A stretch of DNA of 64,000 nucleotides. It comes from Rugalucina vietnamica (taxonomy: Eukaryota > Mollusca > Bivalvia > Lucinida > Lucinidae). Position 1 is the first letter of the stretch. The number at the start of each line of letters is the position of its first letter. Position numbers and translations under genes: made by a program. Positions 3,058-62,410 of this stretch are shown here, in pieces. The stretch spans positions 62,336,711 through 62,400,710 of the forward strand of contig OZ024877.1 in assembly GCA_964017185.1 (NCBI GenBank), in the 5' to 3' direction. A model generated the notes under the pieces. The model ran no database searches. It was given only the letters and a program-made list of their open reading frames with translations, and was not told where the DNA came from.

Positions 3058-3795
3058 AAAGGTACAAGTAGGCAAAGAACAGGAAAAGGCGCAATCAGAA
3101 AAAGATTCCCACTCCAAAAACCGAGGTGGGAAAAAACCAAACTAACAAGCAGGTACCTATACCATGAAAACATTTCGTAAGCCGAATGAGCAGCTATTTT
3201 CCCAATAGATGGCCACTCAGTTACCTTAACTTAACTAAAAATATGAAAACATACATAAGGCGCCAACAGCACAAAAATATTTTAAACACCAAGACATAAA
3301 ACAAAAAGAACCACCACAGAAGTATCGACTTGGAATGATCAGTAACACAAAATTACTGGCGGGTTTCAATCGATTTTACATGGCCATAACCTCACTTCAG
3401 CTTCTGCAGTGGTTCATAACATTTAGTTAGTTCTTCGGTCCTCGTTGTGAATCTCTAACTAGTCAATGAATCATCAAGAACAAACAAATAAATCAAGATA
3501 AACATCCTGATGAATCAAAAACCAGGACTCACAGCTTCACTAAGCTGCCCGACGATGGAGATCCCTGGGCGCCGAATAACTTACTAACTCCGGAGCAAAA
3601 GAAAAACATCAGTTAGACCCCGGTGGACCAAGCAACAGACAAGAAGCTCCGGCCCCAACCAACTAAAATAAATAGCTTTAAGTCGGGGCCATCATAGAGT
3701 CTGACGCCCGACCCACCGGCGTGCAATTAAAGAAGGCAGCATAGTTATCAACCGTGATTGGGTTAAAAACTAAGCATGAAGACTGTCGCATAACA
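3058..3795 (-). repeat. dispersed family R1
   Basis: Constant end (minus strand) TTGCCTACTTGTACCTTTTT at 3058. The copy extends upstream to a partial coding end read as VMRQSSCLVFNPITVDNY and AAFFNCTPVGRASDSMMAPT. No function recognised for the peptide. Confidence 0.75.
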
Positions 3796-3899
3796 ATCAA
3801 GTAAGTCTGTTTCTGTTGATTATCCTCCAATAAACATGCGTTTGGGTTTGATGGTAACGTCCTCACATTAGGTCATGTATTCAGTGTGCTTAGCTGTGA

Positions 3900-5390
3900 A
3901 AGTGCAGTTGAAACGTGTATATTTGAATAAGACTGATGGTTCTCCATGCTCAATTTGGGCTATTAACCTGTCGTAATTGCATGTAGTAAGGTCCCTCTGA
4001 AGCCTTCATTCAGCTGATAATCAACGCAATATCTTATTGTTCTATTCCGTCTTCTGTTACACAGCATAAGTACAGCCAGTGGGACTTCTGTCATGTTTGA
4101 TGTTGAATTGACAAAAACACAGGAATCAAAGAGGATAAGTTGAAGTTAAAATTGGTGTGTTTCTTTTTGTTTTACTGTGAATATCATATGGTCGACAAGA
4201 CAATTGTTCGAACTTTCCGAACGCCCCTCGTATTTTAGTAAGTAATTATGAGGTCATTAGGATCTACCTGGATGAGGCCGTATAAATGACATATAAAGCA
4301 CAATATCAATATGTACTGATACTGATTTTAATAACCCTTTCATTGGCAAATAATATTCCTCCTTGAAGTTCCCATCATTATCTGCTAAGAGTCATTAGGG
4401 CGTTATACAATCCAACATGTGTCTTTAAGACCGCATTAAGTTTGTGCGACGCTCTTCATAAGTCTTCATACTAGCACTTGTAGACATCATTCTGTTGCAA
4501 GTACCATGACGGAGATAATAAGAAAGACCAGTAATTGCTTTATAGACCAATTAACACGGCCATATTTAAGTTCATATACTGGTTTGGCACACATTAAACA
4601 GTCCAAACGGTAGACAATTACAGTTGCAAACCTGAAAAACTGTTAGCAAACAAGTACACCTAGGAACAATTGCAGTTTAACTGTACGGCTATATAGTAGG
4701 GATCGTTAAACTAGCCTCTAGTAAGGACATCTCAGAAGTGTTTGGCCAGGAAGTAAGCGCGTGCTTGAAACACACTCACTGTGCATCGCGAACGCGCCTT
4801 CCATACGGGTCTTTGATTGACTATTGAAAATAGGCAATGGCCAGGAGAAAATGATCTGGACAGGAAAGTTTATTCATAACTGAGAAAGGTGAAATCAAAT
4901 AATTAACCAAAAAAGAAAATCGAGAACTACTTTGTTTGTCCTTGCTCTTGAAGGATCTCAGCTTTTTATTCATATTTAAAATAATGTGATTCACGTAGAG
5001 ATTCCATTCTTGCAAGACATGCACATCGGAAAATTGTTTCATAGGTAGAAGGTTAGAAGTGCCCATAGCCTTGTGAACAAATGAGGTATCCAGTATTCAA
5101 AAAGGCATCGGATAATTATCTTAGTAGACATCAAGCATTGTTGGACACCACAACATAATAGTCACGTTTGAAAGACCAGTAATACACTTATGTAAAACTG
5201 TAGATACAATGTTTTGCAATCCACAAGGGTATTAAATGATACATATTTGTGTGGACTGTTTCCCGTATCAACTAATTTTAAGAGAGCTCAGGGCCTCATT
5301 TTAATTTTGTCAACAGTCATGCTATTAAGTAAATGATCATATGGGAATGGTCCAGGATTTTTGGAGTGGCGTAATGAGAAAAACTGATTT
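3900..5390. other. no feature seen
   Basis: AT-rich sequence; short open frames only, none with recognisable motifs. Confidence 0.5.
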
Positions 5391-20800: not shown

Positions 20801-23800
20801 AGTAGGTCATATTGGCATTTTGGAAGTAAGTACCGTCACGTAAATTACTGTCACGTTTATTACATTTTCAACTTTAGCATCCAAAAAAAAAACACTTTAG
20901 GGTCGTTTGATATTAATTTTATTTTTTGTGAGATGTATTCATCCTCCATACTTTCATATTCAGATAACGTTGTTTCAAATACCATGTTGGATTTGTAGAA
21001 AAATGGTGTCACGTATGATTTCATCTTAAAAGGGACGCAATGGTTAAGCAGGGGGATTAGATATATTTGACCAAAATAGTAAAGCAAAAAGAAAATTCCA
21101 TATGTTATCCATATAAAGGACATATTCAACTATTTAGATGACACAGTTTGGTCTGCAATAAGAGAAAGCAGTATTAAGATTTGGACAATCTTCTATAACG
21201 TCACGTAAATTACAGAAAGTCTGTGACATGCTTTTTTCGATTTTTGATGTTTGATATTTTTGTTTGTTTACAAGATATAAAATAACCATTTCTTTTCCCA
21301 AAAAATATGCCAAATTAAGTAAATCGAGAGATGCTGTTTCGTATGAAAATAGAATTTGTTCATTCTATCGCCTTTTGAATTTTTGCATTTCAGTTTGTGA
21401 CATGCCGTTTTTGGTGGGGTCATGCATTATTCACTACTACCAGAGATCTTAAAAAAACATAACTGGGTATCATACTTTATTCGGTTTAAATGGAGATAGT
21501 ACCAAATTTTGAAAATACGGCCAACCTTGGTGATATATTGAACAATGTCACTCCAATTTTTATTTAACACCCCGAGACAGGGGGTGCGCTGCTTATTTTA
21601 GAATGAGTGTATACTACTTGCATCTCTTAAACGGCATCATTATACATTTTTTTTATAAATTCGATAACTATAACTAAAACTGAGAGGCGCCTTATTGTTT
21701 TATAACACTTTCACATTCAGATATCTAAATGCCTCAAAGTTATGCTGTATATAAGAAATGTCATATGCAATGATGGTATTCCTTGGAATTTAATTACAAC
21801 TTGTCTTCAGGCGTGTCGTTGATTAGATATTTCATTTTTTCAGGGCGTATGGCTATAAAGAACTCGGTATTAGCGAGATGAAAATCAACCTGGATTCCAG
21901 GGGATTACTGATATGGGAGCCTGGAATTGTCATGTCTACAGTATGTGAAGTCAGCATCGCAAAATATCCCTTTGACAAACAACACTGTGCAATACGAATA
22001 ATGTCCTGGATGCACACTAACAAAATGATTCACGTGCACGTGGAGAATCGTAAGGTTGATATCAAGAATTATTACCCGAACGGAGAGTGGGATCTTACTG
22101 ACACTCTGGTCCGGGAGTTCTACCCCGAGGACGGCTCCTATAATGACGGGGAGATTCTACCGGGGGCAGAGGCAATACTGATGCTGCGTAGGAAACCTAC
22201 GTTCTATATACTGAGTACAGTACTGCCTATATCATTGTTATCACTGCTCAACCTGCTGGTGTTCCTGCTGCCGGCCTCTACTGGGGAGAAAATGACGTTA
22301 GCTGTAACCGTGCTACTGTCGTATACCGTGTTCATGAGTGTCGTTAACGAGATCATGCCAAAGACGTCGAGCAGCGTTTCCATTTTAGGTAACGTCATAG
22401 TGTACTGGTTGTCTCGTATTTCAAATCATACTGTTCTTCATGTGGTGTAGATCTGTACTGTAAAGAACTTTAATATAATTTCTCGTGTGCATTATTGCAT
22501 TAAGCTGATTAAGACATTTCGCAATTCATTTTGCCTTCAGTTGCAGAACATTAACGAACGCATTATTGTCTGCGATGTTCCCAGATGAATTAAGCGTTTG
22601 TCTAACTGTAATTGAGCCCAGTCATTAAAATGCAGCTTAACATTTACATCATCGCCTACTCTTGAATCTTATATTTAATTAAAAGACAATTTTTTCATTA
22701 TACTTAAACAATCTAGTCAAAATATATATATCGTCTAGTTCACATACTGTATTTGGTTGTCAATAAGCATAACTGTCATTTGTATTTTGTATCAGACTAT
22801 ATTTTATTGATTTCATCCGTCTATCTGACGTTCCTGTTGTGTATGAGTGGTATATCCGTTGCCCCTACGGTCTGGGTGTTGTGTTTATGATATTATTGTG
22901 TATTTCAGCTGTGTATCTGACGTTCCTGCTGTGTATGAGTGGTATATCCATCACCTCCACGTTCTGGGTGTTGTATTATGATATTATTGTGTATTTCAGC
23001 TGTGTATCTGACGTTCCTGCTGTGTATGAGTGGTATATCCATCACCTCCACGTTCTGGGTGTTGTATTATGATATTATTGTGTATTTCAGCTGTCTATCT
23101 GACGTTTCTGCTGTGTATGAGTGGTATATCCGTCACCTCCATGGTCTGGGTGTTGTATTATGATATTATTGTGTATTGCAGCTGTGTATCTGACGTTCCT
23201 GCTGTGTATGAGTGGTATATCCGTCACCTCCACGGTCTGGGTGTTGTATTATGATATTATTGTGTATTGCAGCTGTGTATCTGACGTTCCTGCTGTGTAT
23301 GAGTGGTATATCCGTCACCTCTACGGTCTGGGTGTTGTATTATGATATTATTGTGTATTTCAGCTGTCTATCTGACGTTCCTTCTGTGTATGAGTGGTAT
23401 ATCTGTAGCATCTACGGTGTGGGTGCTGTATGTCCACCATAAAGAATTTATGCCCAGATGGTCAAGACACTTCCAGGAAGTTCACGAAACGAAATTCCAC
23501 CGCGTGTTTAGGCCCAAGGATAAGTCGTGTAACAACAACAGTGACGGCGCTAGTCTAGCACGTCCTAAGACTGTAATCAACGGGACGTGCCCGTCACCTA
23601 CACCTAGTGTCAATCAAAGACTACTGGAGATGAAGGAAACTGAGGCAACTCTCGACATATTAGAGGACGCGGAGGACACACGGGACTGTGCTAAACGGTT
23701 GTGTGATATTATCTGTGATCATGGTAGACCTGGAACAGACGGGGTTAGACAGCACCCCTCGGGGAAAATGGATAAAATATTGTTCTGGTTGGTCGGTGTT

Positions 23801-23851
23801 CTCACGGCTATAGCTACTCTTACAATGCTTGTGCTTCTAACTACAGAGTGA
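14723..23851 (+). CDS. nAChR-like Cys-loop receptor subunit, copy A (gene span)
   Basis: Predicted non-alpha nicotinic acetylcholine receptor-like subunit of a pentameric plasma-membrane ligand-gated cation channel. Proposed exons are 14723-14813 (tentative), 15513-15667, 17138-17182, 18913-19022, 21844-22388 and 23364-23851. Joined they give 1434 nt, or 477 residues, typical of the family. Visible features: probable signal peptide (~1-40), N-glycosylation sequons NQS and NIS in exon 2, loop D/A region in exon 4, Cys-loop C168-C182 with 13 residues between, M1 (~254-277) with its proline, M2 starting G281-E282-K283, M3 (~316-340), a ~105-residue intracellular loop with MPRW, and M4 (~453-475). 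GEK at the start of M2 plus E303 predict cation selectivity. No vicinal cysteines occur in loop C, so it is not a classic alpha subunit. Exons 3 (45 bp) and 4 (110 bp) match vertebrate nAChR exon lengths. Ligand and expression are unknown. Confidence 0.85.
14797..15573 (+). repeat. 85-bp minisatellite spanning the exon 2 splice acceptor
   Basis: About nine head-to-tail units. Exon-like segments start at 14918, 15003, 15088, 15173, 15258, 15343, 15428 and 15513, exactly 85 bp apart, with a degenerate first unit before them. Each unit is 61 nt of exon 2 start followed by 24 nt of intron end (ATGTATCCTATATTTCAG at its 3' side). Units at 15003-15343 alternate between CCAATG with ACATCTGTAT and CCCATG with ACACATGTAT, forming a 170-bp higher-order dimer. 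The ~62-residue open frames here are products of the repeat, not genes. Confidence 0.95.
15513..15667 (+). CDS. copy A exon 2: mature N-terminus and first beta strand
   Basis: The exon follows TATATTTCAG and ends at CTG|GTGAGT. It enters in phase 1 and leaves in phase 0. It encodes ARLHETLFENYKKFIRPVYN and then QSEALQVNISFFIIMIHDL, which matches the nAChR N-terminal helix and beta-1 region (family pattern LxxNYxxxxRPV). It holds two N-glycosylation sequons. The first 61 nt of this exon, with the 24 nt of intron before it, are the unit of the 85-bp array upstream, so eight AG sites with the same context precede or equal this one. Only the last gives an open frame into the rest of the exon. No counterpart was found in front of copy B. 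Confidence 0.85.
15683..15807 (+). repeat. TG-rich degenerate microsatellite after the exon 2 donor
   Basis: Alternating TGTGTG, CATATG and GCGTAC sequence begins about 15 nt after the exon 2 donor. It is low-complexity purine-pyrimidine alternation. UG-rich intronic RNA near donors can bind splicing regulators; a role here is only a guess. Confidence 0.7.
16855..17068. mobile_element. palindromic MITE M1 before copy A exon 3
   Basis: Contains CAAAGGCGCAGATCAGCTTC and its complement back to back around 16908, ending GATGCGGCTC. Counterpart at 39640-39858 before copy B exon 3. Confidence 0.7.
17138..17182 (+). CDS. copy A exon 3
   Basis: A 45-nt exon between TCTGCAG and GTAAGT, phase 0 at both ends, encoding DLKNQVLTTNAWLRV. 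It aligns with the invariant nAChR exon 3 (DEKNQxLTTNxWL pattern), with Leu in place of the usual Glu at position 2. The length equals that of exon 3 in vertebrate nAChR genes. Confidence 0.92.
17199..17455. mobile_element. palindromic element P1, decayed, copy A
   Basis: An older copy with an eroded palindrome right after exon 3. The same decayed copy sits after copy B exon 3, so it predates the duplication. Confidence 0.6.
18913..19022 (+). CDS. copy A exon 4: loop D and loop A region
   Basis: A 110-nt exon bounded by GCATAG and GTAAGT, entering in phase 0 and leaving in phase 2. It encodes SWYDEFLSWDEEKYGGLHEV and then LVEKDEVWIPDLLVENT. W-x-D-x-x-L-x-W and WIPD are the classic loop D and loop A signatures. 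The usual loop A tyrosine after WxPD is replaced (LLVENT), hinting at altered agonist recognition. The protein is identical to copy B exon 4, although about nine codons differ synonymously. Confidence 0.93.
19215..19348. mobile_element. palindromic MITE M1 in copy A intron 4
   Basis: Central palindrome (CGCTGGTCAGCTTCGCAGTT and complement) with the end TTTTCTCACGATGCGGCTCA. Other worn copies lie near 2552-2860, 5395-5605, 12203-12415, 38545-38745 and 57330-57520. Confidence 0.65.
19559..21612. mobile_element. 2.05 kb non-autonomous TIR element in copy A intron 4
   Basis: Inverted ends CACTCATTCTAAAATAAG (19565-19582 and its complement ending ~21609) bound a block absent from copy B, where GAAGTACTACTTGC is continuous (~46935); the target duplication is TA or TAC. 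No transposase frame is seen. The interior carries the motif GTCACGTAAATTAC in both orientations at ~20106, 20300, 20320, 20680, 20830 and 21199. Confidence 0.75.
21844..22388 (+). CDS. copy A exon 5: Cys-loop, M1 and M2
   Basis: A 545-nt exon from TTTTTTCAG to TTTTAG|GTAACG, entering in phase 2 and leaving in phase 1. It encodes the outer beta strands, the Cys-loop (C168 to C182, ending FDKQHC), loop B Trp189, NGEWDL of loop F, a loop C lacking a Cys pair, RRKPTFY before M1, and M2 with GEKMTL, T289, L292, V296 and E303. These pore positions match cation-selective nAChRs. It differs from copy B by one residue (R249 here, His in B). Confidence 0.94.
22794..23430 (+). repeat. 91-bp minisatellite spanning the exon 6 (M3) splice acceptor
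   Basis: Seven units with exon-like starts at about 22817 (AG lost, CAT), then 22909, 23000, 23091, 23182, 23273 and 23364, exactly 91 bp apart. Each holds 67 nt of M3 coding sequence and 24 nt of intron ending in GTGTATTTCAG or GTGTATTGCAG. Copy B has just two units at 52322-52500, so the expansion is specific to copy A. Confidence 0.95.
23364..23851 (+). CDS. copy A exon 6: M3, cytoplasmic loop, M4 and stop
   Basis: A 488-nt terminal exon after GTGTATTTCAG, entering in phase 1. It encodes M3 (AVYLTFLLCMSGISVASTVW), HHKEFMPRW at the start of the cytoplasmic loop, an acidic amphipathic stretch before M4, and M4 (KILFWLVGVLTAIATLTMLV), then a stop at 23849-23851. The first 67 nt, with 24 nt of intron, are repeated upstream as a 91-bp array with six intact AG acceptors. 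Only the last one keeps the frame through M4. Confidence 0.93.
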
Positions 23852-32109: not shown

Positions 32110-33380
32110 ACTCCCTAAACTAACTAAACGTTATGAACCACTGCAGAAGCTGAGGGTGAGGTTATGGCCATGTAAAACCGGTTTAAGCCCGCCAGTAACT
32201 TTGTGTTACTGATCGTTCCAAGTCGATACTTCTGTGGTGGTTGGGTTAAAGACGCTTTTAAGTGAGGGTCTTTCGGAACCAGAATTTTATGGTGACTTGG
32301 TTTACAAATTTAAGAAACTTATAGGAAGTAATGATTTTTCTTTTCAGTTTAGAAAAATCATAACACGTTACAGACGTATAGGTTATAACTTGAATGTTAT
32401 GCGACAGTCTGCATGCTTAGTTTTTAACCCAATCACGGTTGATAACTATGCTGCCTTCTTTAATTGCACGCCGGTGGGTCGGGCGTCAGACTCTATGATG
32501 GCCCCGACTTAAAGCTATTCATTTTAGTTGGTTGGGGCCTGAGCTTCTTGTCTGTTGCTTGGCCCACCGGGGTCCAACTGATGTTTTTCTTTAGCTCCGG
32601 AGTTAGTAAGTTATTTGGCGCCCAGGGATCTCCATCGTCGGGCAGCTTACTCAATCTGTGAGTCCTGGTTTTTGATTCATCAGGATGTTTATCATGATTT
32701 ATTTGTTTGTTCTTGATGATTCATTTACTAGTTAGAGATTCACCACGAGGACCGAAGAACTAACTAAATGTTATGAACCATTGCAGAAGCTGAGGGTGAG
32801 GTTACGGCCGTGTAAAATCGATTTAAACCCGCCAGTAACTTTGTGTTACTGATCGTTCCAAGTCGATACTTCTGTGGTGGTTCTTTTTGTTTTATGTCTT
32901 GGTGTTTAAAATATTTTTGTGCTGTTGGCGCCTTATGTATGTTTGCATATTTTAGTTAAGTTAAGGTAACTGAGTGGCCACCTATTGGGAAAATAGCTGC
33001 TCATTCGGCTTACGAAATGTTTTCATGGTATAAGTACCTGATTGTTAGTTTGGTTTTTTCCCACCTTGGTTTTTGGAGTGGGAGTCTTTTTCTGATTGCG
33101 CCTTTTCCTGATCTTTGCCTACTTGTACTTTTTGTTTTATGTCTTGGTGTTTAAAAATTCTTTTTGTGCTGTTGGCGCCTTATGTATGTTTTCATATTTT
33201 TAGTTAAGTTAAGGTAACTGAGTGGCCACCTTTTGGGAAAATAGCTGCTCATTCGGCTTACGATATGTTTCATGGTATAAGTACCTGACTGTTAGTTTGG
33301 TTTTTTCCCACCTCGGTTTTTGGAGTGGGAATCTTTTTCTGATTGCGCCTTTTCCTGATCTTTGCCTACTTGTACCTTTT
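32110..33380 (+). repeat. dispersed family R1, long copy with coding end
   Basis: Longest copy. An internal direct repeat (ACTAACTAAATGTTATGAAC to CTGTGGTGGTT) occurs before and after a coding tail at ~32240-32512 (LLSEGLSEPEFYGDLVYKFK through SDSMMAPT stop). The final ~230 bp are duplicated in tandem (32888-33130 and 33133-33380). The coding tail suggests an autonomous parent of unknown class. Confidence 0.75.
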
Positions 33381-35450: not shown

Positions 35451-36857
35451 TTAGCTCCGGAGTTAGTAAGTTATTTGGCGCCTAGGGATCTCCATCGTCG
35501 GGCAGCTTACTGAATCTGTGAGTCCTGGTTTTTGATTCATCAGGATGTTTATCATGATTTATTTGTTTGTTCTTGATGATTCATTTACTAGTTAGAGATT
35601 CACCACGAGGACCGAAGAACTAACTAAATGTTATGAACCACTGCAGAAGCTGAGGGTGAGGTTACGGCCGTGTAAAATCGATTTCGGAACCTGCATTTTA
35701 TGGTGACTTGGTTTACAAATTAAAGAAACTTAAAGGAATAAATGATTTTTCTCTTCAGTTCGGAAAAATCATATCACGTTACAGACGTATAGGTTATAAC
35801 TTGAATGTTATGCGACAGTCTGCATGCTTAGTTTTTAACCCAATCATGGTTGATAACTATGCTGCCTTCTTTAATTGCACGCCGGTGGGTCGGGCGTCAG
35901 ACTCTATGATGGCCCCGACTTAAAGCTATTCATTTTAGTTGGTTGGGGCCTGAGCTTCTTGTCTGTTGCTTGGCCCACCGGGGTCCAACTGGTGTTTTTC
36001 CTTTGCTCCGGAGTTAGTAGGTTATTCGGCGCCCAGGGATCTCCATCGTCGGGCAGCTTACTCAATCTGTGAGTCCTGGTTTTTGATTCATCAGGATGTT
36101 TATCATGATTTATTTGTTTGTTCTTGATGATTCATTGACTAGTTAGAGATTCACCCCGAGGACCGAAGAACTAACTAAATGTTGTGAACCACTGCAGAAG
36201 CTGAGGGTGAGGTTAGGTACCTGTAAAACCGGTTTAAGCCCGCCAGTAACTTTGTGTTACTGATCGTTCCAAGTCGATACTTCTGTAGTGGTTCTTTTTG
36301 TTTTATGTCTTGGTGTTTAAAATTTTTTTGTGCTGTTGGCGCCTTATGCATGTTTTCATATTTTTAGTTAAGTTAAGGTAACTGAGTGGCCACCTATTGG
36401 GAAAATAGCTGCTCATTCGGCTTACGATATGTTTCATGGTATAAGTACCTGATTGTTAGTTTGGTTTTTTCCCACCTCGGTTTTTGGAGTGGGAATCTTT
36501 TTCTGATTGCGCCTTTTCCTGATCTTTGCCTACTTGTACCTTTTTAAACCCGCCAGTAACTTTGTGTTACTGATCGTTCCAAGTCGATACTTCTGTGGTG
36601 GTTCTTTTTGTTTTATGTCTTGGTGTTTAAAATATTTTTGTGCTGTTGGCGCCTTATGTATGTTTGCATATTTTTAGTTAAGTTAAGGTAACTGAGTGGC
36701 CACCTATTGGGAAAATAGCTGCTCATTCGGCTTACGAAATCTTTTCATGGTATAAGTACCTGATTGTTAGTTTGTTGTTTTCCCACCTTGGTTTTTGGAG
36801 TGGGAGTCTTTTTCTGATTGCGCCTTTTCCTGATCTTTGCCTACTTGTACTTTTTTA
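35451..36857 (+). repeat. dispersed family R1, composite copies
   Basis: A partial copy (35451-35690) joins a copy with the coding tail (to 35923) and two further 3' ends finishing near 36546 and 36857. They are placed between the arms of the fold-back. Confidence 0.75.
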
Positions 36858-39960: not shown

Positions 39961-42900
39961 GTGAGTAGCAAATGTACTTACGAAAACTTGCCTATGGAAT
40001 ATACAGAGATTTGTTTCAACTGTACAAAAATGAAAAATTCATTGCAAAAATATGACATTTCAATATGATTACTCAAAATATTGATAGTGGGTGCACGTTA
40101 GAAAAGCATCGCAAAGGCGTAACGAGTACCAACAATCTATGTCTTGGATAAAGAAAACTCTTCCAAAGGATCTAACGATTATATTTTATCTGTATACCCC
40201 GTTCTCACTAATTAAGAATTGGGTATAAGGGTATTTATCACACGGACAGTTCTGCCTGCTAACCGGGAAAATGGAAAATAAGATATCTTCTTCGCAAACA
40301 AGTAAGCGTTTCCCACGCTGACCTTTTAAAAGAAACAAAAAAAAGATGTTGCTAACAAGAGGTAGGGGATATTTAAGAACACGAAACCCAAAAGCGAAGC
40401 ACGTTTATACCACAAATCCTGAGACCATCGTCGAATGCTTTGTACCATCTTATTCAATAAGCGATCACCTTCCGGTCTGTTTCACGAGAAAAGCTAGCTG
40501 TAAAATTCAAAAGCATGAGCACATTACCACCACTTATAGGTCATTTAAAAAATTCAATGAAACTCAGTTTTTGAATGATCTGGCATCTGCTCTGGAGCCT
40601 TATGGTAACTTTACGACTGGTTCTGATATAAATGATGACTGTTCTGCCTGGATCAAAATTATACAGAACCAGTTGGATCGCCATGCCCCGTTAAAATCGA
40701 GAAGAGTCAAATTCAAACGTTTGCCCGAGTGGTCAAATCAAGAAATCCAGACGACTCGTAGGTTAAGAGACATAAGCAAAAGACACGGCAACTGGTCTGA
40801 TAAAAAATATAGAAACAAAACAAAAACACTAATTCGGCAGGCAAAGAAGCATCACTTTTCAGAAGCTGTTACAAATCTTAAAGACACTAAATCCATCTGG
40901 AAGAATTTACGGACTGAAAGTCAAAAGGCCGCTGCGCAACAGAATTCTTTGCCTAATAAGCTCGAAATAAATGGCCAAAATTATACTAATTCACAAGAAA
41001 TTGCCTATAAATTGAACAACTATTTTGCTTCTATCAGTGAATACATCAACGACAATAATGTGACCACTAGTCCCCCCGACCTGACCAAATTACAAGCATA
41101 TATAGAGTCCAAAATTCCAAAAGAAACTTTCTTCAAAATACCAAAAATAACTCCAAATCAAGTTTCTCAATTTATAAATGGACTGAATCCGGATAAAGCT
41201 ACTGGTCTTGACGGCATTGGCCCTAGAATCTTAAAACTATCAAACTCTGTAATTTCCCCATCTATAGCAGCCCTAATAAACAAAAGTATAAACACAGCTA
41301 CATTTCCAGATCAGTTAAAAATGGCTAAGCTGTTTCCTATTCATAAAAGTGGGTCTAAAACTGACCCAGCAAACTACAGGCCAATTTCAATTCTTCCAAC
41401 TGTTTCTAAAATATTTGAAAAGCATATAAATAAACACTTAGTTGCATTTTTGAATAAATATAAAGTAATACACGCTAATCAATCAGGCTTTAGACAAAGG
41501 CATAGTTGCCAAACCGCCTTGGTCAAATTGATCGATCAATGGATGGCATGCATAGATAGAGGTGATTTGGTGGGTTCAGTTTTCCTCGATTTCCGAAAGG
41601 CATTCGATCTCGTTGACCATTCCATTCTTATTGATAAACTTTCACTATATAAATGCAAAGGTTCAGATTTAAATTTGTTCAGTTCGTATCTACAGTCTCG
41701 TCAACAAGTAATCGACAGTGGTCAGAGATTATCAAAACCAGCCGATATAAAAACGGGTGTGCCTCAGGGGTCAATTTTGGGACCTACATTGTTTTTAATT
41801 TTTATTAATGACCTCCCTCTTCATATGGAATACTGTGAAATTGACCTATTTGCTGACGATGCTACGTATCATATAAATGGTAAAACAAAATCCGAGGTCG
41901 AACCCAAATTGCAAACTGATGGCACTAATTCTAGAACTTGGGCTAAGCAGCATAAAATGCAAATACACATCGACTGCATGTATGGCACTCGGAACAAGAA
42001 ACATGACTCAGAATGGTTTTTCAAAATTAAATATAGACATAGATGGCAATAAAATAAAGCAAGTTGACAAACAAAAACTTCTAGGCGTATTTATCGACGA
42101 AAATTTATTGTGGACACCACATATAGATTATCTTTGTGCTACAATATCGACAAAAATATCCCTTTTGAAACATTTATCAACATATGTCCCCGTAAAAGTC
42201 CAAAAGTTATTTTATCAGGGGTACATCTTACCACTTATTGATTATGGCTCTAATACTTGGGGTTCAACGTCCAAACAAAATATTGAAAGATTAGCTAAAT
42301 TGCAAAAACGAGCGGCCCGCATTATCCTAAAGACGGGGTTCGATACATCATCTTCGGAAATGTTCACTGATTTGGGTTGGCTAACCATAAAAAACCGCCA
42401 TAACTATAATAAGGCAGTCCTTACGTATAAAGCTTTGAATAAATTAACGCCTGAATATATCTCCGATTTATTAAAGCCTGTGTCTGAAGTACATAATCGT
42501 AATCTGCGATCTGCATCCAACGGCTCCTTGGCAGTGCCAAGATCTAGTACATCATTCTTTGATAGGTCATACTCTGCAACTGCACCAAGATTATGGAACT
42601 CTATGCCAAATGAAATTATTACTGAGTCATCTTTAAAAAACTTTAAAAGGTCGGCTAAAACTTATTTTAGTAAACAGTGAACGTATTTTTTAAAATGGCA
42701 AATGTGCAATCGCAACTGCGCTCGCTTTGTACATTGATGGTCCACATCTGCTCTGGGCACCCTGGTTCCTGGAGAGATGGGAGATGGATCGTGGAGCAGC
42801 TTACACGTAACGCTCCGGTTCCAATTCTGCGGTGAGCTAGTCCAATTTATGGCTCGCGGGATGTTTCTGGATCATTCATTGTGCCTTGCGAGTGCATTGC

Positions 42901-45900: not shown

Positions 45901-48900
45901 GTCGCATTGCTCTCTATTCGTGCTGTAGATAATTGTTATGATCATGTTGTCCCCTTGTGCCCACCTCGGTGTCTGGGTTGGGATTTTAAATAACATGGTG
46001 AAAATTCCTGTACATATAATTCTTACTTTTGGCCCCGCTATTTAGGCACTGAGCATTAGATGGACTGCTTGTGCCTCCAGACAATGCTCATAGGCAACTC
46101 ACTAACCATCTGAATACTGGTTAGCCTGCCAAGGAAATGAGGCTCAAGTAAAACCATCTATGCATATACATGTATGCGTTTTTGGTTTACTTGGGTGGTA
46201 ATTTTTTGTTTGGTGTCATGACATCCTAATGTACGGAGGCAACGTCTCGACATGGCTTTAGCTATTGACTGGGACGCTAAGCCACAACTGAAAGAAACAA
46301 TTCAAAATTCTTCCTGTACAGAGTTGGTACGACGAGTTTCTGAGCTGGGACGAGGAGAAGTACGGAGGTCTACACGAGGTGCTGGTCGAGAAGGACGAGG
46401 TCTGGATACCTGACCTGCTCGTGGAGAATACGTAAGTCAACCTACACACTGATTATGATAGTAGTGTTTGTAAACAATTCATGCACGTAAATGATCGTAA
46501 ATGTAGAATTTTCATTACAAAAACTTGCCCATGCAATAAACGGATTTTTTTTGAGCTTTAAAAATTGAAAATTTTCAGCTGAAAAATTTGATATTTTTCT
46601 TATTTTTGCTCAAAACATAGATTGTGGGTACACGTTAGAACCGCCTCGCCGAGGCGGTTCTAACGAGTACCCACAATCTACGTTTTAGAGCAAACATAAG
46701 AAAAATAGGTATACCCCTGCATACCCCAGTTTTGCTATATAAAAGTGGGGTTCAAGGGGGTATACATTGCACGGACATGTTTTCCTGATGTAAACTTAAT
46801 TAACGTGAAGAAGGGATTGCTCTTATATTAAGTAACAAAATTCGTTACAAGCAGCATTGCTCTTGCACCAAAAACGCTGTTAGCAACGTCATACCAAGAA
46901 ACGTTACGTTGTAGGCGTTCTAATACCCTAAAACTGAAGTACTACTTGCATCTCTTGAACATCATCATTATACAATTTTCTAAAATTTGATAATTATAAC
47001 TAAGATTGAGAGGCGTCTTAGTGTTTCATAACACGTTCACATTCAGATATCTAAATGCCTCAAAGTTATGATGTATATAAGAAATGTCATATGCAATGAT
47101 GGTATTCCTTGGCATTTAATTACTACTTGTCTTCAGGCCGTGTCGTTGATTAGATATTTCATTTTTTTCAGGGCGTATGGCTATAAAGAGCTGGGTATTA
47201 GCGAGATGAAAATCAACCTGGATTCCAGAGGATTACTGATATGGGAGCCTGGAATTGTCATGTCTACAGTATGTGAAGTCAGCATCGCAAAATATCCCTT
47301 TGACAAACAACACTGTGCAATACGAATAATGTCCTGGATGCACACTAACAAAATGATTCACGTGCACGTAGAGAATCGTAAGGTTGATATCAAAAATTAT
47401 TACCCGAACGGAGAGTGGGATCTTACTGACACTCTGGTCCGGGAGTTCTACCCAGAGGACGGCTCCTATAATGACGGGGAGATTCTACCGGGGGCTGAGG
47501 CAATACTGATGCTGCATAGAAAACCTACGTTCTATATACTGAGTACAGTACTGCCTATATCATTGTTATCACTGCTCAACCTGCTGGTGTTCCTGCTGCC
47601 GGCCTCTACCGGGGAGAAAATGACATTAGCTGTAACCGTGCTACTGTCGTATACCGTGTTCATGAGTGTGGTTAACGAGATCATGCCAAAGACGTCTAGC
47701 AGCGTTTCCATTCTAGGTAACGTCCTAATGTACTGATTGTCTCGTATTTCAAATCATACTGTTCTTCATGTGGTGTAGATCTGTGGTCAGGTCAGTTTAA
47801 CTGCTACTGTAACATGTAATCAGTACTACCTGTTGTCATGCGGTGCAGATGGGGCTCGTTAGCCTTGGAAGGCAACTCATCTAGGAGTTAAGCTAGTTCT
47901 CTACACAAAAATCTAGCTGGGCAGGGGGAACTCATTAGTCTTGGTTGACAGTCCTCCTAGGAGTTTACAGGTCTCTAAACAAAACCTAAGAAAGGGTAGA
48001 TGGAGCTCTTCAGCTGTGGCCAGCAATTCATCTAGGAGAAGGAACCTCCAAAATCAAACCTGTGTGTCTGGATATGCCTAGTCCAGATATGCAAAGACTG
48101 TTTCGGTAGATGGAGCGGAAGAAATCACCTGATTCAACGGTTCAGAAAGCGATACAGCAACATGTTGTGGAACATGCAGAGCGTGACAAGGCACTAAAGA
48201 TGTTACGGTCATCCACAGCATCCAAACCCAACTCCAGACGTCTTGACCTGTGTCTTGCCTCTGGGCGCAGCTGGGCGAGGACTAGAGAGTGAGGTTGACG
48301 TTGCGCACCTCTTCCTCACTATAATCCAATTTCATAGCGCATGTCATCTTATTTCTCAACACACAAGCACTTGCATACACAACAATTTCATCACACTTGC
48401 ACCCACATACCTACAAAGTCCTGTGGCGATGGGCGAGTGGCGAAGCAGCAGGTGTAGGACACACTGGGAGCTGTAGTTGCAGACCTGCACACAGGCGGCT
48501 CAGTTCTAATGGTCGTTTTCTGTGAGGAGAAGCAGTAAGCAGAATTCGGCAGTCGGCTGAGCGACTGAGCAGACCTATTTAGGACCGCACTGCTCACCCC
48601 CGTAGCATGGGGAAGGGGCTAGAAAAGGTGCCCTAAACAATTGCCTGCTTCAAACCCCCTGGCTGGTTAACCGCGATCAGCGGGGATCCCCTTAAGCGGT
48701 CGAAATACAAAGAAAAAAGCTAGAGTAATCCCCTTACGGATTGGCGCATGGAATGTGCGTACTTTAATGGACAATGCTGGGTCAGATAGACCACAGCGTA
48801 GAACGGCCCTTGTGGGCAGAGAACTTGGGAGGTATGATATACAGATAGCTGCATTGAGTGAGACTCGGTTCGCAGATGTTGGGGAGATCAAAGAAGTTGG

Positions 48901-51900
48901 TGCTGGATACACCTTCTTCTGGAGTGGACGCAAAAGTGAAGAGAGGCGTGAAGCAGGAGTTGGCTTTGCCATCAAAACAGAACTTGTTGGTAAGCTGTCA
49001 GGATTGCCAAAAGGCATTAATGACCGTCTAATGACATTGAGACTTCCTCTGTCAGGCAATAAACATGCAACTATTGTCAGTGCTTATGCACCCACAATGA
49101 CCAATCCAGATGAGGTCAAGGACAAGTTCTATGATGACCTAGACAATGTTATTTCTGCAACACCCCGTACAGACAAGCTTATCCTTCTTGGCGACTTTAA
49201 TGCCAGAGTGGGTACAGACCACCAGACCTGGGAAGGAGTTATAGGTCCAGAAGGGGTTGGAAAGTGCAACAGCAATGGTCTCTTGCTTCTCAGGAAGTGT
49301 GCTGAACATGACCTTCTAATCACCAACACAGTCTTCCGTCTACCTAATAGGAACAAAACATCCTGGATGCATCCCCGTTCCAAACACTGGCATCTCATAG
49401 ACTATGTCATAGTGCGGAGAACAGACAGGCAGGATGTTAAAGTGACAAAGACTATGTGTGGTGCAGACTGCTGGACAGATCATAGACTGGTTGTCAGCAA
49501 ACTCAACCTAAGAATACAGCCTGCGAGGCGACCTCAAGGCAAGAAAGCTCCTAAGAGACTGGATGTCTCAAAGCTGAATAAAGACAGCATGAGACAAGAT
49601 TTCTTAACAGACATTTGCAACCAACTGGATGCAATGAATCTCAGTTCAGAGGACCCCGAAGAAAACTGGACAGTTTTCCATAAAACAGTTCTTTCTTCAG
49701 CTGCAAGCACCTTAGGCCATCCATCTCGCAAACATCAAGACTGGTTTGATGAGAATGATGACAAAATTCAGAGGCTTCTTGAAGAAAAGCACCGATTGCA
49801 CAAGGCACATCAAGATGATACTAGCTCAGTATCAAAGAAAGCAGCCTACAGCAACATTTGTAAGACAGTTCAGACCAAGCTTAGGGACATGCAAGATTCC
49901 TGGCTGAGGAAGAAAACAGAAGAAATTCAGTCTTTTGCGGATAGAAAGGACATGAAGAAATTTCATGATGCACTGAAAACCATTTATGGTCCAAAGAGTT
50001 CTGGAGCCACCACATTGCTCAGTGCAGATGGAAACACTCTTCTCACAGATAAAGAAGCTATCTTGGAAAGGTGGGCAGAACACTTCAATAGTGTGCTTAA
50101 TCGACCATCAAGCATCAATGAGGATGCAATCGACAGACTTCCACAGATAGAGTGCAATGTTCTGTTAGATGAATTTCCTACCGTTACGGAAACAAGAAAA
50201 GCAGTTCAACAACTATCATCTGGCAAAGCCCCAGGTGCAGATGCAATTCCTGCCGAAGTTTACAAGGCTGGGGGGCTACCCATGGCAGAGAAACTGACAG
50301 AGTTGTTTCACTGTATGTGGAGAAAGGAGGCTATCCCACAAGAATTTAAGGATGCATCCATAATCCACCTATACAAGCGGAAAGGAAATCCTCAAGTCTG
50401 TGACAATCACAGAGGCATCTCCCTCCTATCAATTACTGGGAAGATACTTGCAAAAATTCTGTTGAATCGTCTGAATGCTCATCTTGATCAGACGGGACTT
50501 ATCCCAGAAAGTCAATGTGGATTCAGAAAAGACAGAGGGACAATAGACATGATCTTCACAGCAAGACAGCTTCAGGAGAAATGCCAAGAACAGAATGTAG
50601 ATCTATACATGACGTTTGTTGACCTCACCAAAGCTTTTGACACTGTTAGTCGTGATGGACTCTGGAAAATCATGGCCAAGTTTGGCTGTCCACCCAGATT
50701 CATAGCAATGGTGCGGCAGTTTCATGATGGCATGCAGGCACGTGTGCAAAATGATGGAGAGTTCTCTGAACCATTTGAAGTAACAAATGGGGTCAAACAA
50801 GGCTGTGTTCTGGCACCAACACTGTTCAGCATGATGTTTTCTGCCATGCTTATGGATGCTTTTCAGGACAGTGACACTGGTTTTCCAATCAGGTACCGTT
50901 TTGATGGCAACATATTCAACCTCAGAAGGTTGCAAGCCAAAACTAAGGTCCAGACTGATGTGCTAGATGAGCTCCTCTATGCAGATGATATGGATAAGAA
51001 TGCCAGCACAGAGGCAAAAATGCAAAGAGCCATGGATCAAGTCTCACAGTCATGTGATAACTATGATCTCACAATCAGCACAAAAAAGACAGAGGTTGTA
51101 CACCAACCAGCGCCCGGAAAGCCATATAATGAACCAACCATCACTGTGAATGGGCAAAAACTGAAAGTTGTTGACAAGTTCACCTACCTGGGAAGCACTC
51201 TCTCCAGAGCAGTGCATATTGATGATGAGATCACTGCCAGAATTGCAAAGGCTAGTGTGGCATTCGGACGACTCCGTGCAAATGTCTGGGAGCGAAATGG
51301 AATCAAGCTTGACACCAAGCTGAAAGTCTACAAGGCTGTGGTACTGCCAACCCTCTTGTATGCATGTGAGACCTGGACAGTATACCAACGCCATGCAAAG
51401 AGACTTAACCATTTCCACTTAAGCTGTTTGAGAAAGTTGTTAAAAATCAAGTGGCAGGACAAGATTCCAGACACAGAGGTCCTGACGAAAGCAGGGATGC
51501 AAAGCATGCATACAGTCTTAAAGCTAGCACAGCTAAGATGGACTGGCCATGTTATAAGAATGCCTGATGCGCGACTTCCAAAGAAAGTTTTCTATGGAGA
51601 ACTACAGGAGGGAAAGCGCTCTCAAGGTGGCCAGAAGAAACGCTACAAAGACACCCTCAAAGCCTCTCTGAAGGATTTCGAAATACCAATGGGGTCCTGG
51701 GAACAGACTGCACAGGAGCGATCAAAGTGGCGAGGTCTCATCAACAAAGGGGCAGCTCTTTATGAAAAGAAGAGAATCTGTGAAGCTGAAAGAAAGCGAA
51801 GAGAGCGCAAAGCCAAAACAAATGTGCCACCATCAGACTCTATGACATTGACTTGCTCTACTTGCAACCGACAGTTTAGAGCCAGAATTGGCCTAGTCAG

Positions 51901-52923
51901 CCATCAAAGAACTCACCAACACACATCAGCACTATTCAAGAAATAATGATGGTCTTTCTCATTAGTGAGAGACGAACTATCAGATCTGTACTTCAAAGAG
52001 CTTAAATGTAATTTCTCGTGTACATTATTGCATTAAGCTGATTAAGACATTTTGCAAATCATTTTGCCTTCAATTGCAGGACATAAACGAACGTATTATT
52101 GTCTGCGATGTTCGCCAATTAATTAAACGTTTGTCTTACTGTAATTGAGCTCAGCCATTAAAATGCAGCTTAATACTTACAGCGTCGCCTACTCTTGAAT
52201 CTTAAATTCAATTAAAGACAATCTTTTCATTACACTTAAATAATTTCGTCAAAATATATCATCTAGTTCACATACATTATTTGGTTGTCAATAAGCATAA
52301 CTGACATTTGTATTTTGTATCAGACTGTATTTTATCGTTTTCACCCGTCTATCTGACGTTCCTGTTGTGTATGAGAGGTATATCCGTAGCCTCCATCGTC
52401 TATGTGTTGTATTATGCTATAATTGTGCATTTCAGCTGTCTATCTGACGTTCCTACTGTGTATGAGTGGTATATCTGTAGCCTCCACGGTGTGGGTGCTG
52501 TATGTCCACCATAAGGAGTTTATGCCCAGATGGTCAAGACACTTCCAGGAAGTTCACGAAACGAAATTCCACCGCGTGTTTAGGCCCAAGGATAAGTCGT
52601 GTAACAACAACAGTGACGGCGCTAGTCTAGCACGTCCTAAGACTGTGATCAACGGGACGTGCCCGTCACCTACCCCTAGTGTCAATCAAAGACTATTGGA
52701 AATGAAGGAAACCGAAGCAACTCTCGACATATTAGAGGACGCGGAGGACACACGGGACTGCGCTAAACGGTTGTGTGATATTATCTGTGATCATGGTAAA
52801 CCTGGAACAGACGGGGTCAGGCAGCACCCTTCGGGGAAAATGGATAAAATATTGTTCTGGTTGGTCGGTGTTCTCACGGCTATAGCTACTCTTACAATGC
52901 TTGTGCTTCTAACTACAGAGTGA
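39916..52923 (+). CDS. nAChR-like Cys-loop receptor subunit, copy B (exons 3-6 only)
   Basis: Paralogue of copy A in the second tandem unit, with exons 39916-39960, 46322-46431, 47172-47716 and 52436-52923 (1188 nt, 395 residues plus stop). All splice sites, phases and exon lengths equal those of copy A. There are three amino-acid differences by eye (A to V in exon 3, R to H before M1, R to K in the cytoplasmic loop) against about three dozen synonymous changes. Exons 1-2 are missing because the duplication starts inside intron 2. The introns hold two LINEs and several small elements, but no exon is broken. It is either a 5'-truncated gene using copy A's 5' exons by long-range alternative splicing, or a gene with an unrecognised start. 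The conserved coding sequence argues against a dead pseudogene. Confidence 0.8.
39977..40258. mobile_element. palindromic element P1, decayed, copy B
   Basis: Counterpart of 17199-17455 in unit B. Confidence 0.6.
40397..42680 (+). pseudogene. LINE reverse transcriptase, frame-broken
   Basis: The fragment starts with the end of an AP-like endonuclease (SDHLPVCF), then the reverse transcriptase with NYRPISILP, FLDFRKAFD, GVPQGSILGPTLF and the catalytic FADD at 41849-41860. The reading frame is lost at about 41,990-42,030 and resumes in another frame through LLGVFIDENLLW to the end at 42680. The missing N-terminal endonuclease and the frameshift make it non-autonomous. The first ~17 codons of the longest open frame (from 40346) are receptor intron, not element. 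Confidence 0.85.
40397..43305 (+). mobile_element. 5'-truncated CR1/L2-like LINE in copy B intron 3
   Basis: Comparison with the empty site in copy A intron 3 (~17546-17570) places the insert between CGAAACCCAAAAGCG and GCAATAACACGCG, with a short AGC-rAA overlap as a possible target duplication. It starts inside the endonuclease domain, carries the reverse transcriptase, and ends in an (AAAT)n tail at ~43278-43305, typical of non-LTR elements. The C-terminal pattern (RLWNSMPNEI) is common in CR1/L2/Jockey-group elements; clade assignment is tentative. Confidence 0.85.
43917..43977 (+). repeat. A-rich low-complexity tract
   Basis: Mixed A-runs and AAAT units in copy B intron 3, not attached to a recognised element. 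Confidence 0.8.
44695..45252 (+). repeat. dispersed family R1 in copy B intron 3
   Basis: Runs from TTTTCTTTAGCTCCGGAGTT to ACTTGTACTTTTTA. Not seen in the copy A intron. Confidence 0.75.
46322..46431 (+). CDS. copy B exon 4: loop D and loop A region
   Basis: A 110-nt exon between TGTACAG and GTAAGT. The protein is identical to copy A exon 4 although several codons differ at third positions, a sign of purifying selection. Confidence 0.92.
46511..46789. mobile_element. palindromic short element P1 in copy B intron 4
   Basis: Nearly identical to the 9302 copy, with a perfect palindrome around 46615-46686. Copy A intron 4 has the empty site (GTAGAATTGTAAACTT at ~19395); filled against empty shows no target-site duplication. 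Confidence 0.8.
47172..47716 (+). CDS. copy B exon 5: Cys-loop, M1 and M2
   Basis: A 545-nt exon from TTTTTTTCAG to TTCTAG|GTAACG. It encodes the same Cys-loop, M1 and GEK-M2 as copy A, with His for Arg just before M1 (MLHRKP) and about eleven synonymous differences. A 4.2 kb LINE sits in the intron that follows. Confidence 0.93.
47785..51981 (+). mobile_element. near-full-length LINE in copy B intron 5
   Basis: Flanked by the 8-bp duplication AGATCTGT (47777-47784 and 51982-51989). Copy A has this site once, uninterrupted, at ~22449, so insertion followed the duplication. The element is 4,197 bp, has no poly-A, and ends GAGAGACGAACTATC. A decayed relative lies at 58684-59130. The endonuclease is of the RTE/craniofacial-development-protein-2-like type, but the C-terminal C2H2 finger suggests an I-group/Nimb-like member; the clade is uncertain. 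Confidence 0.88.
48671..51946 (+). CDS. LINE polyprotein: AP endonuclease, reverse transcriptase, C2H2 finger
   Basis: One uninterrupted frame after the stop at 48668-48670. The endonuclease starts PLRIGAWNVRTLMD and continues with AALSETRF, LLGDFNARVG, LIDYVIV and TDHRLV. The reverse transcriptase follows (NHRGISLLS, FVDLTKAFDTVSRDGLW, GVKQGCVLAPTLF, YADD at 50978-50989). The C-terminus carries CETWTVY, LRWTGHVIRMPD and a C-x2-C-x12-H-x3-H finger (cysteines at 51854 and 51863). The product would nick target DNA and prime reverse transcription on it. No ATG lies upstream of the endonuclease in frame; the first ATG (48767) would cut off its first strand, so the start is unclear (GTG at 48755, non-AUG, or lost ATG). 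No disabling mutation is seen downstream. Confidence 0.85.
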   Translation, partial: PRSAGIPLSGRNTKKKARVIPLRIGAWNVRTLMDNAGSDRPQRRTALVGRELGRYDIQIAALSETRFADVGEIKEVGAGYTFFWSGRKSEERREAGVGFAIKTELVGKLSGLPKGINDRLMTLRLPLSGNKHATIVSAYAPTMTNPDEVKDKFYDDLDNVISATPRTDKLILLGDFNARVGTDHQTWEGVIGPEGVGKCNSNGLLLLRKCAEHDLLITNTVFRLPNRNKTSWMHPRSKHWHLIDYVIVRRTDRQDVKVTKTMCGADCWTDHRLVVSKLNLRIQPARRPQGKKAPKRLDVSKLNKDSMRQDFLTDICNQLDAMNLSSEDPEENWTVFHKTVLSSAASTLGHPSRKHQDWFDENDDKIQRLLEEKHRLHKAHQDDTSSVSKKAAYSNICKTVQTKLRDMQDSWLRKKTEEIQSFADRKDMKKFHDALKTIYGPKSSGATTLLSADGNTLLTDKEAILERWAEHFNSVLNRPSSINEDAIDRLPQIECNVLLDEFPTVTETRKAVQQLSSGKAPGADAIPAEVYKAGGLPMAEKLTELFHCMWRKEAIPQEFKDASIIHLYKRKGNPQVCDNHRGISLLSITGKILAKILLNRLNAHLDQTGLIPESQCGFRKDRGTIDMIFTARQLQEKCQEQNVDLYMTFVDLTKAFDTVSRDGLWKIMAKFGCPPRFIAMVRQFHDGMQARVQNDGEFSEPFEVTNGVKQGCVLAPTLFSMMFSAMLMDAFQDSDTGFPIRYRFDGNIFNLRRLQAKTKVQTDVLDELLYADDMDKNASTEAKMQRAMDQVSQSCDNYDLTISTKKTEVVHQPAPGKPYNEPTITVNGQKLKVVDKFTYLGSTLSRAVHIDDEITARIAKASVAFGRLRANVWERNGIKLDTKLKVYKAVVLPTLLYACETWTVYQRHAKRLNHFHLSCLRKLLKIKWQDKIPDTEVLTKAGMQSMHTVLKLAQLRWTGHVIRMPDARLPKKVFYGELQEGKRSQGGQKKRYKDTLKASLKDFEIPMGSWEQTAQERSKWRGLINKGAALYEKKRICEAERKRRERKAKTNVPPSDSMTLTCSTCNRQFRARIGLVSHQRTHQHTSALFKK
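52436..52923 (+). CDS. copy B exon 6: M3, cytoplasmic loop, M4 and stop
   Basis: A 488-nt terminal exon after GTGCATTTCAG, encoding M3, the loop and M4 and ending TGA. One residue differs from copy A (DHGKPG here, DHGRPG in A). Only one degenerate extra array unit lies upstream (exon-like start 52345, AG mutated to AC), so this exon has a single usable acceptor. Confidence 0.92.
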
Positions 52924-61198: not shown

Positions 61199-61403
61199 AT
61201 ATGAAGTCATAAATAGCAAGCTAGCGTGGTGGGTTTATGGAAGTCATATAGACATAAACTAGAGTCTAAGATCGGTCTGAAGCAAGCTACAGTGTTGGGA
61301 TTAAGAAAGTCATAAAGACCTAAACCATTGTCTTAGATCGATTAGTAACAAGTCTTACGAATATGAAAATTCGTAACTAAGAAATGATGCAAAGCTTGAA
61401 AAA

Positions 61404-61490
61404 ATCCCACGTCCCGGATGGGATTCGAACCCGGACCGCCGGGGTAGAAATCCAATGCTCTAACCACTGAGCCAAAGAGTCGACTCCCTG
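61404..61490 (-). other. tRNA-Arg-like sequence within the TRIM LTR (3' LTR)
   Basis: On the minus strand it holds a perfect A box (TGGCTCAGTGG) and B box (GGTTCGAATCC) at tRNA spacing. The anticodon-arm segment GCATTGGATTTCTA resembles tRNA-Arg(TCT). Acceptor and anticodon stems pair poorly, so it is a tRNA-derived Pol III promoter rather than a working tRNA. A T6 run just after it could end Pol III transcription. A TATA-like CTATAAATAG lies upstream on the same strand. Confidence 0.8.
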
Positions 61491-61683
61491 ACGCAGTATG
61501 TCAGAGATTGTACATATGTGATACATTGTATCGAATAGCTGTGCTATTTATAGAAGCTACGCATCATAGATAATCTCGAATGAATGAGTGGTGCAATGGG
61601 ACATAACACACCCCCATTTCGAGGAAGTAATCATTTATGATTACGAGAATGTCATTATAATGACTAAATGACTCAAATGGTCC

Positions 61684-61701
61684 ATCCCGGACGAGCCCCC
61701 A
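61684..61701 (-). promoter_or_regulatory. tRNA-Pro primer-binding site of the TRIM
   Basis: The + strand reads ATCCCGGACGAGCCCCCA, the 3' end of animal tRNA-Pro including CCA. It abuts the LTR boundary at 61702 with no gap, as expected for minus-strand priming. Confidence 0.85.
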
Positions 61702-61752
61702 TCTTACGAATATGAAAATTCGTAACTAAGAAATGATGCAAAGCTTGAAAAA

Positions 61753-61839
61753 ATCCCACGTCCCGGATGGGATTCGAACCCGGACCGCCGGGGTAGAAAT
61801 CCAATGCTCTAACCACTGAGCCAAAGAGTCGACTCCCTG
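61753..61839 (-). other. tRNA-Arg-like sequence within the TRIM LTR (5' LTR)
   Basis: Identical second copy of the tRNA-like promoter, in the upstream LTR in element orientation, 3' of the TATA-like sequence and 5' of the primer-binding site. Confidence 0.8.
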
Positions 61840-62410
61840 ACGCAGTATGTCAGAGATTGTACATATGTGATACATTGTATCGAATAGCTGTGCTATTTAT
61901 AGAAGCTACGCATCATAGATAATCTCGAATGAATGAGTGGTGCAATGGGACATAACACAAGCAACCGTGGTGAGGTTAAGGAAGTCATATAGACCTAAAC
62001 CATTGTCTTAGATCGATTAGTAACAAGCAACCGTTGTGAGGTTAAGGAAGTCATAAAGACCTAAACCATTGTCTTAGATCGATTAGTAACAAGCAACCGT
62101 GGTGAGGTTAAGGAAGTCATATAGACCTAAATCATTGTCTTAGATCGATTAGTCACAAGCAACCGTGGTGAGGTTAAGGAAGTCATAAAGACCATAACCA
62201 TTGTCTTAGATCCATTAGTTACAAGCAACCGTGGTGAGGTTAAGGAAGAGGTTAAGGAAGTCATAAGTCATATAGACCTAAACCATTGTCCTAGATCGAT
62301 AAGTGACAAGCAACCTTGGTGAGGTTAAGGAGGTCATATAGACCTAACCATTGTCTTAGATCGGTAAGTAGCAAGCTACCGTAGTGAAATTACGGAAGTC
62401 ACATAGACTA

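Follow-up and report, generated by a model that had tools for sequence, protein, structure and literature searches.

A numerous and recently active Helenus-type miniature LTR retrotransposon, with a tRNA-like unit in its LTRs, in the genome of Rugalucina vietnamica

The 64,000-nucleotide stretch of Rugalucina vietnamica DNA analyzed here (the window) carries, at positions 61353-61957, a complete Helenus-type miniature LTR retrotransposon (TRIM) of 605 bp, whose limits rest on the sequence, on the alignment of its repeats, and on the ends and copies found family-wide. A repeat comparison across the whole window returned two direct repeats of 258 nucleotides (61353-61610 and 61702-61959) with 100% identity. 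Of the 258 bases, two match the target duplication and the interior by chance, and the ends shared throughout the family set the LTR at 256 bp (TGTTATG...GTAAGA in the sense of the element) and the element at exactly 61353-61957. In that sense, the 5′ LTR lies at 61702-61957 and the 3′ LTR at 61353-61608, with no differences between them, and they enclose an interior of 93 bp (61609-61701) that includes the TG preceding the 3′ LTR. The interior holds an 18-nucleotide primer site (61684-61701), which directly follows the 5′ LTR and is complementary to the 3′ end plus CCA of the host tRNA-Pro; two short inverted repeats, namely, a perfect 14-nucleotide palindrome, GTCATTATAATGAC (61651-61664), and a hairpin, GTAATCATAAATGATTAC (61627-61644); a polypurine-rich tract, AAATGGGGG (61611-61619), with GGGGG ahead of the 3′ LTR; and little else. 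All of these features run on the minus strand, a correction to the initial annotation. No open reading frame of 150 amino acids or more (the sizes considered) overlaps the element, and the interior folds no better than its shuffled versions (z = -1.0). The element is flanked by the target site duplication CAAG (61349-61352 and 61958-61961), the length of 4 bp being that found throughout the family. It sits in a satellite array with a repeat of roughly 66 bp (units at 61215-61340, 61957-62248, and 62265-62408), and the satellite repeat reveals the sequence of the empty site, which agrees with a CAAG duplication.

Each LTR contains a tRNA-like unit on the minus strand (61767-61823 in the 5′ LTR, with the A box at 61813-61823 and the B box at 61770-61780; 61418-61474 in the 3′ LTR). 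Both units match the Rfam tRNA model at 26.2 bits (E value of 0.0038), which is under the gathering score of 29. The acceptor stem is missing from the match, and some of the pairing in the D, anticodon, and T stems is nonstandard. ARAGORN found no tRNA in the whole window, and the fold of the unit does not stand out from that of shuffled sequences (z = +0.4). Given the subgathering score and the missing acceptor stem, we regard the unit as a promoter-like relic rather than a tRNA gene. Downstream of it, again on the minus strand, is a run of six T residues (T6), a possible Pol III terminator (61748-61753 in the 5′ LTR, where it lies upstream of the primer site, and 61399-61404 in the 3′ LTR), and upstream of the A box of the 5′ LTR is a TATA-like sequence, TATAAATAG (61893-61901). 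The initial annotation, made from the letters alone, had listed identical 256-bp LTRs, the CAAG duplication, an exact 18-nucleotide tRNA-Pro primer site touching the LTR, a purine tract, the A and B boxes, the T6 run and TATA-like sequence, and the lack of a coding region; strand aside, these points were all borne out (the last at the frame sizes considered), and the limits that it gave for the element are exact.

Elsewhere in the window, the segments 21827-22450 and 23303-23851, compared with 47032-47736 and 52423-52923, are two nearly identical copies of a set of exons, which we take to belong to an acetylcholine-receptor-like gene; their near identity suggests a recent duplication. Three SECIS elements score above the Rfam gathering score (3636-3703 on the minus strand, 32487-32554, and 35898-35965), pointing to possible repeated selenoprotein genes. 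Two long reading frames (40322-42680 and 48671-51946, the latter with 1,091 amino acids and no stop) presumably resemble non-LTR retrotransposon polymerases.

The genome searched comprises 1.09 Gb, nearly all of it in 17 large contigs (35 to 102 Mb); the small contigs C18, C19, and C30 to C47 range from 12 to 123 kb. (C47 is an AT-rich contig of 30.7 kb, 9 kb of which was read [L146, C47:1-9000]; positions 3659-4948 of this read hold a 429-amino-acid frame under the invertebrate mitochondrial code, with no Rfam match, and the contig is possibly a mitochondrial genome of large size.) With 3 or fewer mismatches allowed, the junction of LTR and primer site occurs 366 times genome-wide (the reversed control gave 0) and the LTR 3′ end occurs 1,333 times, so that many LTR ends must lie outside complete copies. 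Six of 20 sampled lone-looking LTR ends proved to be solo LTRs with an exact 4-bp duplication. From 1,550 candidates, 46 scored matches spanned all 605 bases, some of them overlapping in arrays. The loci that we examined in detail yielded 112 interior regions. Both LTRs were present for 82 of these, and setting aside 18 flagged as tandem left 64 complete copies. A perfect 4-bp duplication surrounds 51 of the 64 (the chance expectation is about 1 in 256 for each), and in another 7 the duplication is offset by one because a further base precedes the 5′ LTR, the outcome to be expected if the polypurine tract were cut imprecisely. The remaining 6 have no duplication, and 2 of these (L042 and L073) are array units that the tandem filter missed, which makes at least two such misses. 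The LTR pair shows no difference at all in 22 of the 64 copies, a count to be read with the sampling in mind: most copies were drawn from lists ranked by match to the common junction (about 100 of the 366 places) or to the window copy, and ages are thus biased toward the young. One copy is nested within the interior of another (L010/L102).

The family is therefore genuine, numerous, and recently active in this genome. The initial annotation had proposed a very young miniature LTR retrotransposon whose LTR holds a tRNA-like promoter, and it had named as its own refutation the finding that the unit is mostly a dispersed SINE, paired here by chance, or that no other copies have the primer site and CAAG-like target duplications. 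The genome-wide counts point the other way and uphold the proposal in both structure and youth. The tRNA-like head, with its A and B boxes and T run, is indeed what a tRNA-derived SINE (SINE2) would offer. However, SINEs have no LTR pair, primer site, or polypurine tract and use target-primed reverse transcription, and the 366 tRNA-Pro primer-site junctions, the 51 exact duplications, and the solo LTRs refute a chance tandem pair, a reading to which we give practically no credence. A search with a 77-nucleotide tRNA-like query (40 scored matches of 1,420 candidates) was uninformative about related SINEs. At a separate locus (L058, from about position 1511), we noted another A/B-box sequence with a T run, outside the Helenus-type family and possibly a SINE; it is the only one of its kind in the 723,378 bases (both strands) of the window and loci examined.

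Fifteen distinct chains with at least two interiors were seen among the loci examined, one of which (L010/L011/L102) is a nested insertion. In seven chains (L040/L071, L070, L073, L085, L099, L101, and L042, the last only if its LTR ends one base earlier), a 4-bp duplication surrounds the chain as a whole, and in all of these but L042 the units inside that one duplication are unlike. L070 has identical outer LTRs around a middle LTR with 9 differences; the outer two of L101 are a single site apart, and its middle LTR departs from them at 4 or 5 sites. L099 contains four unlike interiors, its outermost LTRs differing at 2 sites and its first two LTRs being identical. The interiors of L042 are identical, a pattern expected from unequal crossing-over, and 7 sites distinguish its outer LTRs. 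The outer LTRs of L073 and L085 have diverged (23 and 8 differences, respectively), and these two thus lend no support to insertion as one product. Overall, the sequences of two of the seven arrays speak for the insertion of a multitemplate product or, alternatively, for an element circle having recombined with a copy already in place.

The common form of the primer site pairs at 18 of 18 nucleotides with the 3′ end plus CCA of the host tRNA-Pro. That 3′ end, GTTCAAATCCCGGACGAGCCC, has 17 exact copies in the genome (the reversed-pattern control gave 0), 14 of them at C10:10.99-11.16 Mb, and 28 matches at up to 1 mismatch. A second type differs at positions 13, 15, and sometimes 16. Among the 112 interior regions, 94 carry the common type, 16 the variant, and 2 some other sequence, proportions that reflect selection by exact or window-copy match and are no estimate for the genome; among 18 further sites chosen for their absence from the listed exact junctions, 11 are variant, 3 common or common-like, and 4 other. 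The loci recorded for the presence of two primer-site types are L002, L007, L008, L026, L053, L055, L059, L073, L095, L099, L101, L103, and L105, with the short reads L147 to L164.

Several different interior and LTR backgrounds carry the variant. It is not confined to one branch of the element tree, where the 14 variant rows need 12 changes (a mean of 13.1 after shuffling, with 111 of 500 shuffles as low), on a tree that is itself poorly resolved (3 of 78 inner branches starred). When the type of primer site was compared with nine variable interior sites, of which the closest is about 10 bases from it, no linkage emerged (r2 ≤ 0.02; P ≥ 0.28), in a sample where selection by the window copy also enriches the variant rows for the common interior and could mask an opposite association. 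Many pairs of interior sites are linked (r2 of 0.54 for sites 36 and 45, 0.66 for 43 and 45, and 0.56 for 35 and 77), and even site 25, with only 8 minor copies, is associated with 6 of 8 other sites at P < 0.01. A distance permutation test of primer-site linkage was uninformative, as its positive controls failed too.

In the textbook course of reverse transcription, sequence copied from the primer tRNA replaces the primer site that was inherited. A primer site that varies independently of its own molecule is what would be expected if the tRNA rewrites it, and the polymorphism may in this regard serve as a genomic readout of primer rewriting. One could instead suppose that the two types reflect two primers, the variant copies being primed by an unassembled or diverged tRNA-Pro isodecoder; the recurrence of the variant on several backgrounds without linkage would suit this equally. 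However, no genomic tRNA-Pro 3′ end fits the variant site at up to 1 mismatch, and the variant type is absent among 21 tRNA-Pro-like ends (reversed control, 1). The variant 3′ end not followed by C has 8 matches in the genome, a search blind to any gene in which C follows and the T loop is unusual; of the 7 that were examined, 6 are mutated primer sites of the family and 1 (L167) lies in an unrelated context, and the eighth falls at the primer site of L111. Since these matches are family primer sites or unrelated sequence, a second isodecoder that rewrites the variant site found no support. Moreover, an inherited variant that is partly overwritten gives the same pattern without any second tRNA, and we consider two primers improbable. 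With no tRNA gene found for the variant, the simplest model is that a mismatched inherited site would be overwritten in part of the events.

How the element is transcribed is less clear-cut. Both boxes are intact in 56 of 64 LTRs, and their spacing is 42 bases in 55 of the 57 LTRs in which both starts could be located. A run of six or seven T residues follows the tRNA-like unit in 57 of 64 LTRs, and TATAWAW lies upstream in 55 of 64. Conservation in the A and B boxes does not exceed that elsewhere in the LTR (their 11-mers rank 157 and 135 of 246), so that selection on the promoter is not apparent from the copies, and the lowest mean entropy in the LTR (0.088) belongs instead to the stretch from the TATA-like sequence to the A box. 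The T run poses a concrete and testable problem, namely, how a Pol III transcript can span the whole element: because the run precedes the primer site, Pol III transcripts terminated at it cannot be templates, and only read-through could give a full-length Pol III RNA.

The presence of a TATA-like sequence, together with T6 ahead of the primer site, makes Pol II transcription possible. The template RNA could be either a set of read-through Pol III transcripts ending at the second T run or a Pol II product. In the latter case, the element would be an ordinary Pol II TRIM driven from its TATA-like box, with the tRNA-like unit as a passenger from an old SINE insertion, and the frequency of TATAWAW, the unremarkable conservation of the boxes, the low entropy between the TATA-like sequence and the A box, and the expected halt of Pol III at T6 all fit this account. 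It sits less well with the intactness of both boxes in 56 of 64 copies and with the scarcity of AATAAA or ATTAAA, which occurs in 1 of 64 LTRs; its absence from the other 63, together with the retained T run, favors Pol III read-through. In addition, the same arrangement recurs in many lineages, according to the available text of Kojima 2024 (PMC10886601). On balance, we think the Pol II account rather unlikely and, from the sequence features, lean modestly toward Pol III transcription of the element.

An element of this size, with no overlapping frame of 150 amino acids or more, would use helper enzymes, and the initial annotation had suggested looking for a larger element with the same LTR and primer site. 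No such element, and no other helper, was identified among the copies of the primer-site 18-mer and the flanks examined. There are 226 exact 18-mers genome-wide whose preceding base is not A (among the approximately 100 matches listed, the base is G in three and T in the rest). At least one of the 226 (C2:45554419, L025) belongs to the Helenus-type family itself. Two others (L172 and L173) share the same sequence over the 90 bases read of each, and both flanks are unlike the family. These further 18-mers, at C1:2416524, C7:58416176, and more than 200 other sites, look like a second set in a different repeat, with a hairpin sequence alongside at L172, L173, and L038. At L038, the 18-mer lies beside a truncated family LTR, opposite in orientation to the hairpin sequence of the L172/L173 type; this locus is unlike a plain LTR/primer-site junction and has no frame longer than 77 amino acids in the 1.4 kb after the 18-mer. 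A similarity of the LTR 3′ end to the L172/L173 sequence was equaled by 109 of 5,000 shuffles, and we give it no weight. These further 18-mers may equally belong to another tRNA-Pro-primed retroelement or to a repeat carrying a tRNA-Pro 3′ end, and, given L025 and L038, we do not count the 226 as support for a second tRNA-Pro-primed family or candidate helper. At L045, the 18-mer abuts and continues a reading frame, presumably gag/protease-like, with no family LTR before it.

The copies display the arrangement of LTR, primer site, and polypurine tract, the match to tRNA-Pro, the 4-bp duplications, and dispersal as complete copies, solo LTRs, and arrays. We consider it very probable that the element is of the Helenus type and propagates through an RNA derived from its LTR, priming by tRNA-Pro, the enzymes of a helper, and an insertion that duplicates 4 bp. 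The RNA would start in the LTR, probably by Pol III through the A and B boxes, with partial read-through of the T run in the 5′ LTR; a stop at the T run of the 3′ LTR would make R span the tRNA-like unit. Host tRNA-Pro would then prime minus-strand synthesis by the reverse transcriptase of the helper, presumably a Gypsy element by analogy with animal Helenus. In being copied, the tRNA would rewrite the primer site and so decouple it from the remaining molecule, and the integrase of the helper would insert the DNA with a 4-bp duplication. A more elaborate, and to our minds doubtful, version is that the element is driven by Pol III, that tRNA-Pro overwrites a mismatched site only in part (linkage being lost within about 10 bases), and that multitemplate arrays integrate as one product, which would account for identical outer LTRs and unlike inner units within a single target duplication.

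Among known systems, the plant Cassandra elements, biv-TRIM, and Helenus are the closest in design. Cassandra, likewise a TRIM, has a Pol III promoter within its LTR and forms long tandem arrays (the available part of PMC7215508), but its promoter is derived from 5S and the one here from a tRNA; both Rfam matches at an E value of ≤1 in 61300-62000 are to tRNA, which rules Cassandra out. The bivalve biv-TRIM resembles the element in size, solo repeats, and tandem arrays. As far as the accessible text of PMC6934838 describes it, however, it has repeats of 202 to 218 bp and an interior of 77 to 80 bp (256 and 93 bp here), with GGGGAGA as the polypurine tract in most and no canonical primer site identified, in contrast to AAATGGGGG and an exact tRNA-Pro site; LTR length, interior length, and tract together exclude it.

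It is with Helenus that the element fits, by anatomy rather than by comparison of family sequences. Kojima 2024 (PMC10886601) gave this name to TRIMs with tRNA-derived sequences in their LTRs, and the sections available to us describe 51 families in pteriomorph bivalves. The kind has thus been known since 2024, and a tRNA-derived counterpart of Cassandra is not the unusual find that the initial annotation supposed. According to the same sections, animal Helenus elements are mostly shorter than 1,000 bp, carry a tRNA-derived A/B-box sequence in the LTR whose tRNA is mostly judged nonfunctional, possess a primer site and polypurine tract, make 4-bp target duplications, and leave solo LTRs; the primers in bivalves include tRNA-Pro, and one zebrafish family (LTR-11_DR) forms tandem arrays. 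The element described here is noncoding at the frame sizes considered and 605 bp long, its tRNA-like unit scores below the gathering level with both boxes in most LTRs, its primer site pairs in full with tRNA-Pro plus CCA, a GGGGG tract precedes its 3′ LTR, its duplications are 4 bp (51 exact, 7 offset, and 6 lacking of 64), and it too forms arrays. In those sections, the origin proposed for Helenus is the insertion of a SINE into an LTR, Pol III transcription is left unproven, and there is no mention of a T run before the primer site or of primer-site polymorphism. To this picture, the present family adds the Helenus design active recently and at large scale in one chromosome-level genome, in which the genes of the host primer tRNA are also found.
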